24,999 nucleotides of DNA from a virus, in IMG/VR virus record IMGVR_UViG_3300028610_000102, positions 1 through 24,999 of that record; one strand, given 5' to 3'. Shown here piece after piece: positions 7,141 to 24,432 of this stretch. A program made the translations under genes and the position numbers. Position 1 is the stretch's first letter, and each line of letters opens with the position of its first letter. The notes below the pieces were generated by a model, which saw only the letters and a program-made list of their open reading frames with translations, was not told the origin of the DNA and made no database searches.

Positions 7141-8741
7141 TACTTTATTCTCCCTGCGTTCTTGGAACCAATGGACAGTTTACCCAACGCCCATGTTTCG
7201 CTTAGTGTACTATTCTTTAGGACGATACCTAACCACTTCGCTCTTGCTCTCTTACGAATCCTGTTCTGCCGTCCTGTGCCTGACAGTGTGATCGCATGTA
7301 ATGGTGTGTCTCCGTCCTTCACAGCCTCCACCAATGTCTCCGCATCATCATTAACGTGTATGTCTGCTGTCAGTCCATCAGTATCCGCATGGGAACCACC
7401 TGAACCGCCACCTGCTGTTATGATCGTTGTAGTTGTTAGCCGTCCACGTCCGTCATCTTCGTCTTCACTCAAATCCTGTATGGGCATGAGACACTCAGAA
7501 GCGATAGCTTGATCACTTACTCCGATGTCGTCATCCTTTGCAGCGTCATCAAACTTTCTGATGTATCCATCCTTGCTACCAATAAGCAAGTCAGCATCAG
7601 ACGGTACGTTCGACGAGTAATAAAGCATAGAATATGCACCACACTCATTCGGATAAGTCTCCGGGAAGAAGCCCTCGGACTTGATGTTATAAAAATAGTT
7701 TGAGTTGCTACCATCACTGAGCTTTGTTATTCCAATAACGATACCGTCTCTACGTTTATCATACCCTAACACAATTCTATGTGTCTCAGGATTCGCATCC
7801 TCATCTTCCGCTAACTTAGGAATACTGAATTGCGATATGTTTTTAAGAAAAGTTGTTCCCTTTTTGATTCTACTTATGCCGTCATTCCCGAACATATATA
7901 GATCACCAAGTTCATCGAAGCACCAAGACTGTGCCCCAAAGATTCCTGTGAAGTCGTCGAGCGAATGAAGCTCACCACCAACAGCAGGGTCTCCTTGTAG
8001 GTAGTGCAAACTAGATGCACAACCGAAGAACATGTAATCATCATGGAAAGGAATCAAAGCACGAACGATGTCACCAACCTTACCTGCATCTGCATTTGTT
8101 CCAGCTACAGGAGTCTGAGCATCATTAGCGATGTAAGCAAAGTCAAAAGGATTTAACTGCCTACTCATGTACCACTGATGGGGGTCGTTAGGATTGCCAG
8201 CCAATACTGCACGTCCTCTATACCATGCACCAAGATAAGCCTTCACTGGCAGTGAGCCAGAGCTTCCATCAGGGTACACTGTCCAGTCATATCCATGCGG
8301 TGCGGTACTAGCTTCTGCTACCGCAGAGGGTACGCGAGTCTCAGGGTCCATGCCACCACCAGATAAGGTGTAACCACCGGTAGTGACAAAAGTTCCACTG
8401 GTTGTGAAACCATATATTTCTGTTTTCGCAGTATTAACAAAATCAACTAGCATTGTTGCACCGGAGGTCAGTTGAGTCACAATAGAACCTCTGGTCGGTG
8501 CTGTAGTCAAAGCCGTGACTGTTATTTTCGTATTAGAAAAGTCTACGATCTTGAAGTTACCTCCATTAACAATGAAAGCCTTTTGAAGACCAGAAAACAT
8601 GTTGAGGTTGTCTGATGTATCTACTACCAGACCTGCTACTTGTGTGAGTGTTCCAGCCACGCTGCCCTCCGCATATACTTTATCATTGCCACTTGCTACC
8701 AAGTGCTTCTTACCCATTTGTGGATTTATTGTTACAGCCAT
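7140..8741 (-). CDS. Putative beta-propeller tail (nozzle-like) protein
   Basis: 533 residues, ATG at 8741. The start lies 2 nt after the stop of the Fn3-like gene, with only a weak GAGAC upstream, suggesting translational coupling. The protein is almost entirely beta strand with repeated short blades of aromatic/Gly/Asp character: WYRGRAVLAGNPNDPHQWYMS, YMFFGCASSLHYLQGD, SWCFDELGDLYMFGNDGISRI, GYDKRRDGIVIGI, LIGSKDGYIRKFDD. An acidic and Gly/Ser-rich loop (SEDEDDGRG, GGGSGGSHAD) comes before a C-terminal beta region with basic residues (RIRKRARAKWLGIVLK). The blades resemble tail nozzle proteins of short-tailed phages. The protein lacks the N-terminal module seen in some one-piece relatives; that module may be the separate small gene at 9615-9839. 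Confidence 0.72.
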   Translation of the reverse strand: MAVTINPQMGKKHLVASGNDKVYAEGSVAGTLTQVAGLVVDTSDNLNMFSGLQKAFIVNGGNFKIVDFSNTKITVTALTTAPTRGSIVTQLTSGATMLVDFVNTAKTEIYGFTTSGTFVTTGGYTLSGGGMDPETRVPSAVAEASTAPHGYDWTVYPDGSSGSLPVKAYLGAWYRGRAVLAGNPNDPHQWYMSRQLNPFDFAYIANDAQTPVAGTNADAGKVGDIVRALIPFHDDYMFFGCASSLHYLQGDPAVGGELHSLDDFTGIFGAQSWCFDELGDLYMFGNDGISRIKKGTTFLKNISQFSIPKLAEDEDANPETHRIVLGYDKRRDGIVIGITKLSDGSNSNYFYNIKSEGFFPETYPNECGAYSMLYYSSNVPSDADLLIGSKDGYIRKFDDAAKDDDIGVSDQAIASECLMPIQDLSEDEDDGRGRLTTTTIITAGGGSGGSHADTDGLTADIHVNDDAETLVEAVKDGDTPLHAITLSGTGRQNRIRKRARAKWLGIVLKNSTLSETWALGKLSIGSKNAGRIK

Positions 8742-8743
8742 GT

Positions 8744-9073
8744 CTATGTCTCATAATAAACTTTATTGTTTGCTGCTGCCACCAGTCTTTTTAATGTCAT
8801 CATGTTGTTTAGTCCCAACGCCGTCCCTGTTGGATTTCCGTCTCCATCTAATGTTACTCCTGTTGGTAAAACTGGATAGAATAATGTTGATGTGAATGTC
8901 CATACATCACCAGTGGTGGTTCCAACAACATTTGTAGCATCTACCCTCCATTGGTATACTGCATTGTATTCCAACGGATAAGGAATCTGAAACTCTAACT
9001 CACTGATAGCGGAAGCAACTAATTCTAAATCATCGCCAACCCTTGAGAAGTAAACATCGTATGTCTCAGCCAT
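8744..9073 (-). CDS. Fibronectin type III-like small tail-module protein
   Basis: 109 residues from the ATG at 9073. The ATG overlaps the upstream TAA by one base and has GGGAG 8 nt before it, so I prefer it over an in-frame TTG at 9088. Residues 3-60 form an Fn3-like sandwich: YDVYFSRVGDDL, then PYPLEYNAVYQWRVDATN and GTTTGDVWTFTS, a characteristic Fn3 ending in which the Tyr/Trp and Thr-Phe-Thr strands are conserved. The remaining 50 residues are a linker and a short helical tail (NNMMTLKRLVAAANNKVYYE). Fn3-like domains are common decorations on phage tails and often bind surface glycans weakly. The function is not provable from sequence; the position just upstream of the propeller gene supports a tail role. 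Confidence 0.75.
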   Translation of the reverse strand: MAETYDVYFSRVGDDLELVASAISELEFQIPYPLEYNAVYQWRVDATNVVGTTTGDVWTFTSTLFYPVLPTGVTLDGDGNPTGTALGLNNMMTLKRLVAAANNKVYYET

Positions 9074-13222: not shown

Positions 13223-14311
13223 TTACTGCTGCGAGATCAAGAAGCCACAACGCTGACGATTTGTAGAACGAATCGCGAACGAAAGGTCCAACGGAACTGT
13301 CAGAACATTATGCATGTTATCACGCTCTCTGGGCTTGCCTTCGGCAAAGTCATTTTCCCTCAAGACTGTTACCTTGAAGTAGTCATGGTTTACGCCATAG
13401 ATCGGGTCAGTACCCATGATAGTACTATATGTCGCACTATCGTCCAGCAACTCCGCATAGACAAAGGGAATACCCTTGTAAAGCACGTTGCCGAAATACT
13501 TGGCAAGGTCAGGACCAACATTGTCATCCATCTTCCTAGCCATTGCTTCCAGATTACCAATCACGTTATCATTACTGTAGTAACGGAACGGACTAGCAAC
13601 TGTTTCTTTAGCCACTGCCTGCGGAATCATAGTGGGCATAAAGTGAGTCTTACGGGTTGCCCTTGCAAGCAAGTCCAGAAGCTTATCACCAAACTGACCA
13701 TTATGGTCTGCGTAGTACGATGCCCAACGAGGCTTATCAGAAGCGGAGCTGCTGATTGTACCAACGTCATAAGCCGTACCAGAACCGTCATTGTACCGAC
13801 CACGATAACCAGTGTAACCACCAGTACTGTTGTCTGTACCCAGACTCAGCCAACTAGCCAAACCATGAGGGTTCTTCTTGTCAGATGCACTCAAAGGAGA
13901 AAGGATAAGTTTCTTCTGCAGAAGCTCACCAAACTCACGGTACATATTTTTCTGTTTCCCAGTGAGGTAGTTATAAACTCTTACCTCATTGCCCATGTTC
14001 ATTGCCAGCAATACACGGTTGTAGTCCATGTTTGTCGAGGCGTGAACCCAATCGACCTTGATCTCTTCATCAGTGTTGACGAGGTTATGTGTATCCTCTT
14101 CCCACAGAGAGATCATCTTCGCGTTACCCGTATCCTTGAGCGTGATGTAATCCTTGATAGCATCACCACTATCACGATCAGCAGCCCGGAACCATGTGTT
14201 GTACAACTCATGGGTGATGTCATTGAATGTCATCTCCAAAGCGTCTTTTTTCTTGGATGCTAGGGTTGCATAGCCAACGTCAATGGCTTGTTCGATTGTC
14301 ATGTCACTCAT
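13223..14311 (-). CDS. Major capsid protein
   Basis: 362 residues, ATG at 14311 with GGGAG 7 nt upstream. It lies between the scaffold gene and a decoration gene, the classic position. The sequence starts with a helical arm (MTIEQAIDVGYATLASKK), has FNDITHELYNTWFRAADRDSG and the mixed strand/helix pattern of an HK97-type shell protein, with MYREFGELLQKKLILSPLSASD as a probable spine helix region. A Gly/Tyr/Ser-rich stretch (residues about 165-190) could be a flexible or inserted loop. The end, PLDLSFAIRSTNRQRCGFL, is a typical closing strand. A hairpin follows. The fold assignment is by context and pattern. Confidence 0.8.
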   Translation of the reverse strand: MSDMTIEQAIDVGYATLASKKKDALEMTFNDITHELYNTWFRAADRDSGDAIKDYITLKDTGNAKMISLWEEDTHNLVNTDEEIKVDWVHASTNMDYNRVLLAMNMGNEVRVYNYLTGKQKNMYREFGELLQKKLILSPLSASDKKNPHGLASWLSLGTDNSTGGYTGYRGRYNDGSGTAYDVGTISSSASDKPRWASYYADHNGQFGDKLLDLLARATRKTHFMPTMIPQAVAKETVASPFRYYSNDNVIGNLEAMARKMDDNVGPDLAKYFGNVLYKGIPFVYAELLDDSATYSTIMGTDPIYGVNHDYFKVTVLRENDFAEGKPRERDNMHNVLTVPLDLSFAIRSTNRQRCGFLISQQ

Positions 14312-19027: not shown

Positions 19028-21046
19028 TTAATAATTAAAACGAGACTGTTTTTTCTTCCTAGCCTCAAGTTTACGCTTTCTCATTCGTGAACCAAGCGTG
19101 TCTCTTTTTTGCGTTATTGATCTTTCAATCGCTGCTCTGGGTTGATACTCAAGAGCTAACACACACAAGCCTAAAGCGATTACTCTATCTCCATGTGCTG
19201 CACTTGCATCTGTATCCTCATCTGCTATTGTCTTGGCAGGGTGAGGCGTTCCAGCACCGTTGAATAGATATGATTCCATTTCCCGAATGTTATGCACATC
19301 AAATATTTTGATATGTTTCCTTCGCGGGAAGTCTTCAAGTCCTTCTCTGAGTGCAACATCCAGACCCATCATCAATGCATACTTGGTTCCATCTGGTCCT
19401 TTACTACTGTTCCATCCGAGTTTGTTTTTCTTCTGCTTGCGTTTTGCAGTCTCATCTCTACGAACGTAGATAAAGCTATACTGATTTTCAACTACACGTT
19501 TTTCAAAGATACCACCGGGACCATTCGATTCCCAGATAAGATAAGGTTCTTTTGTTTTGCCACCTATCCATTTGCATAATGCGACGACAGTATCCGCGAA
19601 CGACTCTGGTGCAGTATTAGGACATATCCATTTTCCCACTTCTTCACAAGTATTAACATCAACGATAGAAGCAACACTATTGGAAGCACCACGACCGAGG
19701 CCAATATCACAGCCAACGATGTAGTTGTGGTCTTGACGAGGCCTCCCATTTGTCAGTCCTTTCCAGAATCTAAGACGACCGACACCGCCTTGTACAATCT
19801 TTGCGTCCCTTACTCTGTATTCTTTATCACGCTTAACAACGATGTCACCCTTGAATGTGGGAGGATAAACACATTTCTGTTCTATTCGGTGAAGAGTCGA
19901 AGGAGTAAATACCGATGCACCTGAACCTCTGGGCCGTCTATCAATATTACAAGCTACGTCGCGATCTCGTCTTGTGCGTCTAACATGATCATACCACAGA
20001 CTACGCCAGCCACCTTCATTGGAATCACCACCATCAGCAACAAACTCAATCTTCTCAAGTTTATTGAACCACGGTTGGTTAGCATGTTTCCTCCGAAGAT
20101 CAGAAACCGTGATAGAGGACATAGGTTCGATCTCATTGAAAACCTCTGGAATTTCTTTCCGGTAGTAATCAATGTCTTTGATCTCAACTACATCATACTC
20201 AGGAGAAAGATACAGACCCACATTCTTGGTTGGGTTCTTGTGCCACGGCATAACCGTCACTGGTATCGTACCAAACTTCTGAGTGATCAGTTGGTTATAA
20301 GGATGCTCAACACCCCAAAAGTGAGTACTGTTAAAGATAACACATTTACTTGTGTCATGTACTGAGTCATTTATATTCAATGCCATGTTGTGATCTATGC
20401 GTCCATATTCATCGACCAGTATGCCTTTCTGACGATCACCAGCACCGAAGTTTTCATTCGTTGCTTCCCCACTGATCACTGAGGAATTGTCCAAGTTCTG
20501 CAACAACATATAGGTTTTCAATAGATTTGGTCTCATCCACTGAGGTAATGTCGTGAGTGCATAGCACAATTTATGCATCAACGACTTGTGGAGTCCTATG
20601 AGTTTCCCCTCGACCAGCTCCACGCCTTTGTCAACATACTCAGCTTTTCTGGACCCTACAAGAAACTGGCTCTCTGAGTCAAGCAAGAAATGTCCAACAA
20701 AGGTCTTACATATTATTTCTGTCGCTCCTTCTTTACGCGACTTGTCAATTGCCATATCATGCTGATTATTGATTGCTTCGTGAATCGCATCAACAGCAGG
20801 CTCCTGATGGGGCCACAGAATGAATGGACGGTTCCTAAAGCCAGCATTCGCTTCTGCGTCATATACCCACATAGCAGCATTAAATAGTATCTTAATATCA
20901 CTCCAACACAGTTCCTTGAATACCTTTTGCATTCCCTTGTCTTTGGCAACTGTCTCATGGAAGTTCATTCTCCATGCGATGTTCTCCGCAGGGTCTTGAG
21001 GTATGCTCTCGAAAAAATCTTTGGGTGTATTAAGTTGATTGTACAT
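19028..21046 (-). CDS. terL: Terminase large subunit (packaging ATPase and nuclease)
   Basis: 672 residues, ATG at 21046 with GGAAG 7 nt upstream; it overlaps the end of the small subunit gene by 17 nt. The ATPase domain shows a Walker A region KSRKEGATE (102-110), whose leading lysine recalls the lambda gpA-type loop, and a Walker B ILVDEYG with D212 and E213, followed by SVHDTSKCVIFNSTH (coupling segment). The RNase H-like nuclease has VGCDIGLG (D447), LIWESNGPG (E506) and AHGDRVIALGL (D620) as the three acidic residues expected. The protein cuts concatemers and pumps DNA through the portal. Length is normal. Packaging mode (cos or headful) cannot be decided from this sequence. Confidence 0.93.
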   Translation of the reverse strand: MYNQLNTPKDFFESIPQDPAENIAWRMNFHETVAKDKGMQKVFKELCWSDIKILFNAAMWVYDAEANAGFRNRPFILWPHQEPAVDAIHEAINNQHDMAIDKSRKEGATEIICKTFVGHFLLDSESQFLVGSRKAEYVDKGVELVEGKLIGLHKSLMHKLCYALTTLPQWMRPNLLKTYMLLQNLDNSSVISGEATNENFGAGDRQKGILVDEYGRIDHNMALNINDSVHDTSKCVIFNSTHFWGVEHPYNQLITQKFGTIPVTVMPWHKNPTKNVGLYLSPEYDVVEIKDIDYYRKEIPEVFNEIEPMSSITVSDLRRKHANQPWFNKLEKIEFVADGGDSNEGGWRSLWYDHVRRTRRDRDVACNIDRRPRGSGASVFTPSTLHRIEQKCVYPPTFKGDIVVKRDKEYRVRDAKIVQGGVGRLRFWKGLTNGRPRQDHNYIVGCDIGLGRGASNSVASIVDVNTCEEVGKWICPNTAPESFADTVVALCKWIGGKTKEPYLIWESNGPGGIFEKRVVENQYSFIYVRRDETAKRKQKKNKLGWNSSKGPDGTKYALMMGLDVALREGLEDFPRRKHIKIFDVHNIREMESYLFNGAGTPHPAKTIADEDTDASAAHGDRVIALGLCVLALEYQPRAAIERSITQKRDTLGSRMRKRKLEARKKKQSRFNY

Positions 21047-21668
21047 CAGTCACTTCCGATTCTATGGTCTTAACGATACGATCTTGATCGTCAGCGATCT
21101 TAGCTGCTGCACCAGCGAGTCGTCTAATATCAGTTGACTCAATCTGTCCTGTCAGGTTGACATTGGTTACAGTTTTTCTTTGTTCAACTTCAATAGACTT
21201 CACATTCTTCCATTCACCAGCACCAACTTGACGGTCCATGTTGATCAGGAAGAACAACAATAAATCTTTGTCCGGTGGACGATGACGGAGTTTGGTTGTC
21301 CTCTTCTTTTCGACCATTAGAAATTCTTCTGAGTCAGGGTCGTTTGGGTCATATCCCATATTTGTGATACGCTCAGTTACAACATCAACCTCTTCGTAAT
21401 CATATCCCATTGCCGACCGAATACCAGTAGCAATCATGTGTGACTTCGCAACGTCTTTTGCCGACGAGCCATTGGCAGTTGCAAGTCTAAATTCTTCGTA
21501 GCGTTGTTTCCATTTGTTTATTGTTGTGGGCTTAACTCCGAGTACATAGCCAAGATCGGTTTCTGTCAAACCAGCAGCCACTAGACGTGCAGCGATCTGT
21601 ACAAACTCGTAATCGAATTTAGCACCTTTCTTTATCTTCCGTCTTAATGCTTTGCTTGTTGTACTCAT
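21030..21668 (-). CDS. terS: Terminase small subunit
   Basis: 212 residues, ATG at 21668 overlapping the TAA of the zinc-finger gene. Residues about 20-57 form a helix-turn-helix (LTETDLGYVLGVKPTTINKW) of the kind that recognises packaging sites. The middle is helical with HMIATGIRSAMGYDYEEVDV, and PPDKDLLLFFLINMD then KNVKSIEVEQRKTVTNVNLTG are typical of TerS proteins. The gene is immediately upstream of and overlapping TerL. TerS forms rings that select genome DNA and regulate the large subunit. Confidence 0.88.
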   Translation of the reverse strand: MSTTSKALRRKIKKGAKFDYEFVQIAARLVAAGLTETDLGYVLGVKPTTINKWKQRYEEFRLATANGSSAKDVAKSHMIATGIRSAMGYDYEEVDVVTERITNMGYDPNDPDSEEFLMVEKKRTTKLRHRPPDKDLLLFFLINMDRQVGAGEWKNVKSIEVEQRKTVTNVNLTGQIESTDIRRLAGAAAKIADDQDRIVKTIESEVTDVQST

Positions 21669-21853
21669 TAGTTTCTCACATAGAATAGTCGTGTTTTCTG
21701 TTTAAGCTCTTTCTGCTTTGCCGTCTCTTTATTCCGGTCTAACAGCTTCCGACAATCCTCACACCAAGAATACGTACCCCATGAGTCCTCACGCTCCTTA
21801 AAGGCCGATTCTGGGAGAACCTCTTCACAACAACTGCATCTTTTCTGTCTCAT
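21668..21853 (-). CDS. Stand-alone zinc finger similar to the endonuclease VII N-terminal finger
   Basis: 61 residues, first gene of the late operon, ATG at 21853 behind a weak CGAGACAGA site. Cysteines C6, C9, C31 and C34 (CSCC and CEDC) with a Pro-Glu-Ser-Ala-Phe turn between them form a treble-clef or zinc-ribbon finger. The same layout begins the HNH nuclease at 24432 (C4, C7, C30, C33), but here the nuclease part is absent and the rest is a basic helix (KETAKQKELKQKTR). It may bind DNA or guide packaging next to terminase, or be a cut-down relic. The function is unproven. Confidence 0.78.
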   Translation of the reverse strand: MRQKRCSCCEEVLPESAFKEREDSWGTYSWCEDCRKLLDRNKETAKQKELKQKTRLFYVRN

Positions 21854-21896
21854 TTCTGTCTCGTTTCGATTAACATGTATAGAGTAAATGTGTACT

Positions 21897-21927
21897 CCCT
21901 CTATATCTCACCGTAACTACAGCAGTA
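21897..21927 (-). promoter_or_regulatory. 31-nt promoter-like element driving the late operon
   Basis: Read on the minus strand it contains TACTGC, GTA, TTAC, GT, then ATATAGAGGG. Twenty-six of 31 positions match the plus-strand copy at 22016-22046. The TATAG followed by purines, and the TA..TAC spacing upstream, resemble T7-type phage RNA polymerase promoters. The putative start lies about 45-50 nt before the first late ATG at 21853. A regulator-binding operator is the alternative. Confidence 0.65.
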
Positions 21928-21941
21928 AATAGGTGTGGTCT

Positions 21942-21971
21942 GCGAAATAAAAATAAAATAAAAATAAAAAA
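21942..21971. repeat. A-rich low-complexity tract between the divergent elements
   Basis: The segment from about 21942 repeats AAATAAA units (AAATAAAAATAAAATAAAAA) and contains almost no C or G. Such tracts bend or melt easily, and it lies between the two divergent elements. It could help open DNA for transcription or replication; nothing proves an origin. Confidence 0.5.
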
Positions 21972-22015
21972 GTTTTCCGGGAGGTGCATAGGAGTGTAGG
22001 AAAAAATTTCAAAAA

Positions 22016-22046
22016 TACTGCGGTAATTACTGTTAAATATAGAGGG
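22016..22046 (+). promoter_or_regulatory. 31-nt promoter-like element driving the replication operon
   Basis: It contains TACTGC, GTA, TTAC, GT and ATATAGAGGG on the plus strand, matching the minus-directed copy at 26 of 31 positions. An 8-bp palindrome GTAATTAC sits inside (22023-22030). If transcription begins at the G after ATATA, the RNA has a leader of about 235 nt before the gene at 22277. Confidence 0.65.
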
Positions 22047-22047
22047 C

Positions 22048-22137
22048 ATGATAAAAAGTCGAGCATGGATGCGAGATTCAAAAATGTTCATGGATGATGA
22101 TAGAGTCACCCAAGCGAATGTTCTTCGCATAGGTTAA
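22048..22137 (+). CDS. Possible 29-residue leader peptide (doubtful)
   Basis: An ATG at 22048, two bases after the plus element, opens 29 codons to TAA at 22135. The peptide starts MIKSRAWMRDSKMFMDDD, which resembles the first residues of YopX-type phage proteins (IKFRAWD...KKM). There is no spaced ribosome site, so translation would be leaderless or absent. It may be a remnant of a longer gene or chance. Confidence 0.25.
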   Translation: MIKSRAWMRDSKMFMDDDRVTQANVLRIG

Positions 22138-22276
22138 GATGTGCAAGCGATATGGTGAGCGAGCGATAGGCATTTTATAATTAAATTTATTTTTATGCGA
22201 ACAAAAGTGCTTTGAGTTTCGTATATATAGATGAACGCTGAAATCTTTTTAGCGGAAATTATTATCGGAGCTTAAT

Positions 22277-22609
22277 ATGGGCAAGAGAATTAAAACAGAG
22301 TATAACATCCCTCCACTTACAGAGAAGCAGAGAGAGGTACTGATCGCAGTCCATCCTTATCTGGATGCACTCACATATCAACAGGCTTCGGAGAAGCTCG
22401 GCATCAGTGTCAGTGCAGTACGATACCGACTCAAAGGTGTTTATAAAAGAGTTCCGTGGCTACAGGAGGATGTCCAGAAGAAGCGTAAAGCAGAGAACGC
22501 TAAGAAGGAAAGCCTACGAAGACCAAACCGATTCCATGATATGTATATGATTGGCAATGATGGCGTGTATGACACCTATCATGGTGAGAAGATTGTGAGG
22601 AAGTTCTAA
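22277..22609 (+). CDS. Helix-turn-helix DNA-binding protein
   Basis: 110 residues, ATG at 22277 with GGAG 6 nt upstream. Residues about 14-58 form a sigma region 4/LuxR-like helix-turn-helix: LTEKQREVL, then LTYQQASEKLGISVSAVRYR. A Lys/Arg-rich stretch follows (DVQKKRKAENAKKESLRR), then an aromatic C-terminus (DMYMIGNDGVYDTYHG). As the first gene of the replication operon beside the divergent elements, it is a reasonable candidate regulator of one or both operons. TAA and the next ATG overlap at 22609. It is too short to be a full sigma factor. Confidence 0.78.
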   Translation: MGKRIKTEYNIPPLTEKQREVLIAVHPYLDALTYQQASEKLGISVSAVRYRLKGVYKRVPWLQEDVQKKRKAENAKKESLRRPNRFHDMYMIGNDGVYDTYHGEKIVRKF

Positions 22610-24432
22610 TGGTAAAGACAGTGATAACCAAATACAGAGAGATGCTTGACTATTTTAGTCAACGTGATTTCTCTACATGTGGGTTTGATACTGAGACGAC
22701 ATCACTAGATTACTTCGACTTGCAGATGACAGGCTGTTCATTCTATAATGGGACAGATGCTTGTTATATTGATGTGCATGAAAGTCCTGACCGTAGCTCA
22801 ATGATAGATATGTTAAAGGAGTTATTTAGACAGCACATCAAATCTTTTGCAATGCACAATGCACCGTTCGATCTCAAGGTACTCCACAAGGAAGGCATCA
22901 CAGAAGTAACTGATAGGATATTCTGTACGATGACGGCTCATCACCTGATCAATGAGAACTCAGGTCATGGTCTTAAAGATTTAGCAGCAAAGTTTCTTGA
23001 TGTAGTACCAGTGTCCTTTGACAATGCATCAGTACGTGGCATGAAGACAAAAGAGTTCTATGACTATGCAATGAATGATGCCATCTGGACTTTCGACCTG
23101 ATGAAGATATTCAACAAGAAGCTGTATGAACTAAACGTAAACAGACTGTTCTTTGAAGTTGAGATGCCATTCCAGTTTACACTAATGGATATGATGATCA
23201 ATGGTGTGCAGATCAATATTGAAGAACTTGAGAACTTACGTATCGAAGCTGCTAAGACTAAACTTCAACTACAGAGAGAACTATATGATGAAAACAATAT
23301 TGGATATTCACTCCAACCTGATATGTTCACTGGTGAAGTTGAATTTGTCAGCAGTGTTAAACTCAGCAATCCGACACTCGATAAACTGTTCAAGAAGCAT
23401 GGCCTTATCACCCCGTATAAGACGAAGACAGGGGCAGCGAGTTACGGTGCTGAGACACTAACACACTTTGAGGGGAATCCATTTGTTGATAAGCTGGCTC
23501 AGTTCAATATCGTAGACAAGCTGCTTGGTTCGTTCATCGTGAAGTTACCACAGCATATCTCTAGTGACGGTAGAGTGAGAGCATCGTTCTGGAACACAGG
23601 AACCGTAACAGGTAGGTTGTCATGTGGCGACCCTAACCTCCAACAGTTGCCTAAGAAAAAGAAGAAACTGCCCTTTGACTACAAGAAGATATTTGAAGTA
23701 GCAGATGGTAAGGTAATGATTAGTGCCGACTACAGTGGTCAGGAGTTACGCATATTGGGAGTGGTTGCAAAGTGTCCCGTCCTGATTGCAGCATTCAAAG
23801 CTGGTGTTGATTTGCATTTGATGACAGCCAATATTGTTTTCGATCTCAAGATAACAGAAGAGAAGATGGTCACAACGCATCCAGAGTATGATGCACTAAA
23901 GGAGAAGCATGACTACGAAAGACATATCGGAAAGAACGGGTATAATTTTCCAATCATCTACGGAACTACGTCCTACGGAATTAGCAAGAATTGTGGAATT
24001 AGTGAAGACGAAGCACAAAGGGGAATTGATAAGTTTTTCTCAGCTTACCCAAGTGTTAGAAAAGCGATTAAACGTACATCCGAGTTTCTCAATTCAAACT
24101 GGCATGTTCGGACGCTTACTAATCGTAGACGTAGACTCAAGCCCGAAGAGAAGAAGTCTCATCGGCAGGCTTTTAACTTTCTTATTCAGGGGTTAGCAGC
24201 CGACATGATCAGGTGTGCTTGTAACAAAGTTCGCAAGATTGGGAAAGAGAACCCACATTGGGAACTGAAACAACTTATGATCGTGCATGATGAAATCGTA
24301 TTTGAAATGAATGAAGAATATACTGATGAGGCTGTGCCCATTCTCAAAGAAGCAATGGAGACGGCGATGAATTTACCTCTTAGGATGCCAGTAGACATTG
24401 GTATTGCTAAAAACTATAGTGGGGCAAAATAA
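22609..24432 (+). CDS. Family A DNA polymerase with 3'-5' exonuclease
   Basis: 607 residues, ATG at 22609 overlapping the upstream TAA. Exonuclease motifs are complete: Exo I FDTET (D27, E29), Exo II NAPFD (N84, D88), Exo III YAMND (Y153, D157). The thumb is residues about 185-315; GTVTGRLSCGDPNLQQLP (331-348) is the conserved palm entry. Polymerase motif A is ADYSGQELRIL (D374, E379), motif B RHIGKNGYNFPIIYG (R438, K442, F447, Y451), and motif C IVHDEIVFE (H560, D561, E562). The enzyme should replicate the phage genome with proofreading. The site equivalent to E. coli residue 762 appears to be Phe (F447). One extra residue between K442 and F447 compared with the usual spacing is notable. It is shorter than T7 gp5 and about Klenow length. 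Confidence 0.95.
   Translation: MVKTVITKYREMLDYFSQRDFSTCGFDTETTSLDYFDLQMTGCSFYNGTDACYIDVHESPDRSSMIDMLKELFRQHIKSFAMHNAPFDLKVLHKEGITEVTDRIFCTMTAHHLINENSGHGLKDLAAKFLDVVPVSFDNASVRGMKTKEFYDYAMNDAIWTFDLMKIFNKKLYELNVNRLFFEVEMPFQFTLMDMMINGVQINIEELENLRIEAAKTKLQLQRELYDENNIGYSLQPDMFTGEVEFVSSVKLSNPTLDKLFKKHGLITPYKTKTGAASYGAETLTHFEGNPFVDKLAQFNIVDKLLGSFIVKLPQHISSDGRVRASFWNTGTVTGRLSCGDPNLQQLPKKKKKLPFDYKKIFEVADGKVMISADYSGQELRILGVVAKCPVLIAAFKAGVDLHLMTANIVFDLKITEEKMVTTHPEYDALKEKHDYERHIGKNGYNFPIIYGTTSYGISKNCGISEDEAQRGIDKFFSAYPSVRKAIKRTSEFLNSNWHVRTLTNRRRRLKPEEKKSHRQAFNFLIQGLAADMIRCACNKVRKIGKENPHWELKQLMIVHDEIVFEMNEEYTDEAVPILKEAMETAMNLPLRMPVDIGIAKNYSGAK

Follow-up and report, generated by a model that had tools for sequence, protein, structure and literature searches.

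Redirection of the host RNA polymerase by phage proteins is already known in several forms. In phiEco32-like phages, a phage specificity factor (phi32_gp36; in phage 7-11 the sigma factor SaPh711_gp47) redirects the host enzyme, diverged factors are matched to different promoter motifs, and the early/middle and late gene clusters run in opposite directions (PMC8948821). RinA, ArpU and Ltr of Gram-positive phages are small proteins, encoded beside the late promoter, that activate it via the host polymerase (PMC13123087). MotA–AsiA and gp33/gp55 of T4 act on the host core polymerase, and the T4 middle promoters combine an upstream recognition element with a -10-like core (PMC2988021, PMC2988020). 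At the RNA level, CsrB/RsmZ-type decoy RNAs and CsrA-regulated leaders carry repeated A(N)GGA in the hairpin loops of untranslated RNA (PMC4066749). Here, we describe a pair of divergent, promoter-like elements at the junction between two operons in a 24,999-nt stretch of viral DNA (IMG/VR record IMGVR_UViG_3300028610_000102, positions 1 to 24,999; hereafter the window), together with a small helix-turn-helix (HTH) protein encoded beside them. We consider it probable, from comparison with related phages, that the elements are the late and replication promoters of the phage, and that the host RNA polymerase is redirected to them by a lineage-specific phage factor, most likely the HTH protein.

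The element pair in the window and its relatives

An earlier note on this DNA had drawn attention to two 31-nt copies, L on the left and R on the right, that face away from each other where the two operons meet. The two copies are alike at 26 of 31 positions and both contain TACTGC and ATATAGAGGG. To the left lies a leftward structural operon (terminase small and large subunits (TerS and TerL), portal, capsid and others), and to the right a rightward replication operon (HTH, family A DNA polymerase (PolA) and endonuclease VII). An unsupervised search returned the inverted pair as its top match (31 nt, 84% complementary, 88 nt between the arms), with a score of 25/30 against a maximum of 20 among 30 dinucleotide shuffles of the junction. 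When the 24-nt 3' part of the element was sought at up to three mismatches, exactly two matches were found in the window and none in 100 shuffles. The observation is confirmed, and is stronger than first stated. A scan of viral contigs for the exact 31-nt pattern gave no match, as expected, because the upstream half of the element varies between genomes.

The window is a virus record not shown to be complete, and whole-genome checks were made in relatives, collected by terminase and polymerase searches down to ~35–40% identity. Nine related junctions have the element pair, and the gene order TerS–junction–HTH–PolA is kept across the close set. When the best inverted repeat at each junction was sought without supervision, the pair came first in the window, L003, L004, L008, L013, G013 and G017, second in L015 and third in L012. 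G013 and G017 have terminal direct repeats of 96 and 114 nt, respectively, and the G013 tail gene runs through the join at these repeats; both were therefore taken as closed genomes, of ~44.3 and 44.7 kb. In both, most genes lie in two blocks diverging from this junction. Two copies of the element were found in G017 and in the window, two and a degenerate one in G013, and three in the L004 fragment. The third copies in L004 and G013 are on the opposite strand, inside the early region, and are followed by the same leader hairpin as the + copies (see below).

The core of the late copy is TATAGAGGG in 8/9 genomes and TACAGAGGG in G013, and TA.A is present in all 18 copies. The late copies have a TATAG core, while the + copies of several relatives lack the G after TATA (TAAAA). 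In the 22-nt block upstream of the core, 14.8 of 22 positions match within a genome, compared to 7.8 between genomes; the partner permutation gave p = 2e-5, a value that was stable whichever genome was dropped, but is somewhat inflated, since the + copies had been chosen for resemblance. In a re-test free of that bias, in which only the distance from the leader hairpin was used to place the + copy and all pairs had equal freedom, the match was 14.3 within and 10.5 between genomes (p = 1e-4), and a genome's own copy was the best in 7/8 rows. The match was 71% within and 35–36% between genomes for positions -31 to -14, and the flanks on either side of the block showed no within-genome effect (permutation p = 0.51 and 0.90). 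A block whose copies agree inside each genome, but differ from one close relative to the next, points to a trans-acting factor that has changed together with its sites. These comparisons give good support to the elements as putative promoters, one per operon, whose reader is a trans-acting factor specific to each lineage. The earlier proposal of a divergent promoter pair, one for each operon, is thus supported; its choice of a single-subunit RNA polymerase as the reader is not.

The phage has no close cultured relative. Matches listed for TerL were partial (26–32% identity), those for PolA reached at most 30%, and the portal had no match; a search of bacterial genomes for relatives of the phage found none. 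The early region of G013 (L055) encodes amidoligase-like, class-II glutamine amidotransferase-like, trypsin-like protease and RNA ligase proteins, besides a DnaB-like helicase and a primase-like protein. At the junctions of three more distant relatives (G014, G016 and L049), which do not have the pair, there are other inverted repeats, TTTTAGYCYAATA and TATAACGATTATAACG, which may be different control sites.

Candidates for the reader of the elements

The single-subunit polymerase named in the earlier note was supposed to be encoded outside the window. The corresponding family, PF00940, had no match in 34 virus records, including the two closed relatives, in a search in which T7 as positive control scored 1e-109; as the genome in the window is partial, this negative rests on the relatives. 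Likewise, N4 RNAPII (gp16 subunit) had no match in the 12 records searched, while N4 itself was detected. A phage enzyme of this kind, whether T7-like, N4-like or packaged in the virion, might lie outside the fragment or be too diverged, and would account for several features. Promoters of T7, T3, SP6 and K11 have a TATAG–purine core and an upstream half that varies by lineage, as do the elements, and for several relatives, transcription from the G of TATAG would yield a 14–16-nt leader opening with a Shine–Dalgarno-like GAGGGAG. A T7-type promoter is about 23 nt long with rigid spacing and a TATAG/purine start. Of these features, the late copies have the TATAG core, but the element is ~31 nt long, its matched block extends ~9 nt further upstream, and the G is not kept in the TAAAA copies. 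Moreover, the two copies in G013 differ by 1 nt in the distance from block to core, a change tolerated by sigma-type promoters, but normally not by T7-type promoters. T7-type phages have many promoter copies scattered in the T7 layout; such scattering was not seen in the complete relatives, whose copies number two, or three if a degenerate one is counted. Taken together, these points make a phage single-subunit polymerase quite unlikely, and the combination of a TATAGAGGG core and a variable upstream half is not enough to infer a T7-like polymerase. The existence of a poorly conserved virion protein of 1070–1142 aa without family assignment is in keeping with a virion-packaged enzyme, which we nevertheless find unlikely. 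This ~1,100-aa late protein, encoded near the end of the structural operon in L057 (1288–4572, + strand) and in its homologues, has no family match and is very poorly conserved (16–45%). The structure model of the largest virion protein had a pLDDT of 36 and was too poor to use.

A complete phage sigma factor was also considered and rejected: region 4 is present, but region 2 was absent from all 14 records searched, while the controls were detected. Standard sigma70 consensus promoters in the junction were not above chance. With no phage polymerase found, and with the spacing shift in G013, we infer that the host RNA polymerase is the default reader of the elements.

The HTH protein is most likely the lineage-specific factor for the elements. 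Its gene opens the rightward operon, beside the + element. A region-4-like protein is common to the set, G017 having a version with two HTHs, and in a search of the viral collection with the HTH protein every match was in a genome with the pair. The HTH proteins match sigma region 4 and PHROG 1190 and 323. The AlphaFold model consists of four helices, for which the top Foldseek matches were mostly sigma region 4 and LuxR-type HTH domains, although these matches were weak (E at least 0.09). The protein has diverged faster than its neighbors, with 67, 60 and 52% identity where PolA has 86, 82 and 78%. Residues 45, 46, 49 and 50, which align with the base contacts of sigma70, are among the most variable (p = 0.003 for the domain and 0.017 for the helix). 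Since it has no region 2, the HTH protein would not function as a complete sigma factor, but as an activator or a substitute for region 4.

Several observations count against the HTH protein as reader of a promoter pair, besides the inflated permutation value given above. The strength of the pair individually exceeds all shuffles only in the window, L004, G013 and G017. Exposed residues 35, 39 and 40, in the helix before the recognition helix, vary no less than the recognition helix itself, and the conserved block (~18–22 bp) exceeds the footprint of one HTH. There are two possible -10 positions, TATAGA at -9 or TANNNT at -14. The absence of region 2 from the HTH protein would also suit the same promoters with a different phage protein as their factor, such as the small first late protein or a sigma/anti-sigma pair that escaped recognition, and there are many small early proteins without assignment. 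We find this rather unlikely, given the location of the HTH gene at the junction, the presence of a region-4-like protein throughout the set and the restriction of HTH matches to genomes with the pair.

A further alternative is that the elements are operators or replication-origin repeats, at which a phage protein represses the junction or opens the DNA for replication. The elements flank A/T-rich DNA with a sign change of the GC skew, operators and origins often contain inverted pairs, and the HTH gene is adjacent. However, the skew here also follows the gene strand. Each copy has the same orientation relative to its genes, with the TATA-like core on the gene side, and in several relatives the element ends just before the first ATG, while the third copies are single, far from the junction and equipped with a leader of their own. 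An operator or origin function as the explanation for the pair is therefore improbable.

Another motif, GCGAAC-N17-CGTATA, a candidate early promoter (P_E), is found upstream of the HTH gene. Every close relative has GAAC-N16/17-CGTATA at the equivalent position, with GC in front of it except in L004 (TGAAC), and the motif also occurs in some distant relatives; the background is 7 per 1.14 Mb of strand. We take GAAC/CGTA to resemble the promoters of extracytoplasmic-function sigma factors. As the motif does not vary with the HTH protein, the host holoenzyme is its likely reader. In L047, GCGAAC-N16/17-CGTATA itself forms a divergent pair at the junction, at 8624–8650 (-) and 8989–9015 (+).

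For redirection by the HTH protein, the following order of events can be proposed. The host polymerase would first transcribe the HTH gene from the GCGAAC-N17-CGTATA motif just upstream. The HTH protein would then bind each of the two elements in its upstream block (about -31 to -14 relative to the end of TATAGAGGG). It would recruit or re-orient the host polymerase at the TATA-like core, so that the late operon would be switched on and the operon of the HTH gene itself boosted.

Leader hairpins and features of the junction

Between the + element and the GCGAAC motif lies an apparently untranslated leader of ~150 nt (22047–22196 in the window; equivalents are at 13400–13550 (-) in L004 and about 23560–23742 (-) in G013). 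It contains short hairpins in which a CA-NGGA-UG core is kept while the stems change between relatives. The lower stem of hairpin 1 spans a tandem GA/GA loop. Across the relatives, 85.7% of its cells are paired, the covariation score was reached by 0/500 shuffles, and the covarying columns are 3/20 (GC:4, UA:4, CG:1) and 4/19 (CG:6, UA:3). GGA hairpins occur at 1.8 per 150 nt in the leaders versus 0.4–0.6 per 150 nt in the comparison, and the motif CANGGANG is present in two or more copies in most leaders versus 0.04–0.06 per 150 nt elsewhere. With the form CA(N)GGANG, all leaders have at least two copies. The folding energy of the whole leader was unremarkable (z = 0.26 in the window, -1.1 in L004 and -1.3 in L003; -2.7 for the third leader of L004); therefore, we claim only the short hairpins. 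The leader hairpin lies downstream of the + copies and of the third copies. Downstream of the late copy it was not found, and it thus belongs to particular transcripts. Where the late transcript is predicted to begin, its RNA can fold into a different small hairpin, GAGTA...TACTC (window 21871–21905 (-)), with GGAGT...ACTCC in L003 and the same stem as the window in L004 (all by eye).

A(N)GGA is the reported core binding motif of CsrA/RsmA (PMC4066749), and the leaders carry several copies of A(N)GGA in the loops of their hairpins, as expected of CsrA/RsmA targets. The hairpins thus resemble CsrA/RsmA sites and are putative binding sites. The phages themselves encode no CsrA, and no known RNA family scored above its gathering score in the junction. 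The features are listed in Table 1.

Table 1. Positions of the junction features and adjacent genes in the window.
Feature	Position	Strand	Sequence or basis
Late-side promoter-like element (L)	21897..21927	-	TACTGCTGTAGTTACGGTGAGATATAGAGGG; core TATAGAGGG, same place in 9/9 genomes compared (TACAGAGGG in G013)
Early-side promoter-like element (R)	22016..22046	+	TACTGCGGTAATTACTGTTAAATATAGAGGG
A/T tract	21946..21969	.	AATAAAAATAAAATAAAAATAAAA; between L and R; similar tracts in most close relatives
Leader hairpin 1	22057..22078	+	AGTC-GA-GCA-TGGA-TGC-GA-GATT: stem, tandem GA, inner stem, NGGA loop
Leader hairpin 2	22088..22097	+	TCA-TGGA-TGA; equivalents in most relatives, with stems ATCA/TGAT, TTCA/TGAA, ACC/GGT, CTCA/TGGG
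Candidate early promoter (P_E)	22197..22225	+	GCGAAC-N17-CGTATA; upstream of HTH gene; conserved
Sigma-70 region-4-like HTH protein (110 aa), candidate specificity factor	22277..22609	+	Pfam Sigma70_r4_2 1.4e-7 (over cut-off), Sigma70_r4 3.8e-7
PolA, second gene of rightward operon	22609..24432	+	Pfam DNA_pol_A 2.3e-74
61-aa protein, first gene of leftward (late) operon	21668..21853	-	ORF list; Cys-rich by eye
TerS	21030..21668	-	PHROG 309, 2.3e-17
TerL	19028..21046	-	tblastn to annotated phage TerL, 26–32%; query for finding relatives

Comparison with described systems

If the HTH protein is indeed the factor, these phages form a compact natural series: over short evolutionary distances (PolA 55–86% identical), a small specificity factor has changed in step with its promoters. 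Such a series would allow direct tests of the co-evolution of promoter recognition, and could supply orthogonal promoter/factor pairs that use the host polymerase. As the group has no cultured relative, this is also a first view of its transcription plan. A bolder picture can be drawn, which we offer tentatively and on the whole hold to be doubtful: a ~44-kb phage genome might be run from one junction by a stand-alone region-4-like protein that re-targets the host polymerase to two mirror-image promoters, its specificity changing rapidly with theirs and insulating related phages from one another, while a leader array of CsrA/RsmA-type hairpins titrates or senses a host global regulator.

The leaders share repeated A(N)GGA in the hairpin loops of untranslated RNA with CsrB/RsmZ decoys and CsrA-regulated leaders. 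Unlike CsrB/RsmZ, these putative CsrA targets are early leaders of phages without a CsrA gene and have a tandem-GA lower stem in hairpin 1. The elements resemble T7-type promoters in their TATAG core, downstream purines and lineage-variable upstream half, but differ from them in the longer block, the flexible spacing, the presence of only 2–3 copies and the lack of a detectable polymerase gene. With the T4 middle promoters they have in common an upstream recognition element and a -10-like core; T4, however, uses a multi-protein system at many promoters, and no homologue of a T4 factor was present among the family matches here.

As with RinA, ArpU and Ltr, a small phage protein is encoded beside its putative late promoter. 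Here, however, one ungapped block is found at each of two divergent promoters, the gene is the first of the early operon, and the proteins match sigma region 4 and PHROG 1190 and 323; neither the ArpU nor the RinA family was among the Pfam and PHROG matches of the HTH protein from the window or G013. Compared to phiEco32 and 7-11, which have sigma factors and 6–8 promoters, these phages have a region-4-like HTH protein without region 2 and 2–3 promoters per genome. They nevertheless share with phiEco32 and 7-11 the motifs matched to each lineage, the opposed gene clusters and, most likely, the redirection of the host polymerase by a phage-made factor, here probably the adjacent HTH protein.
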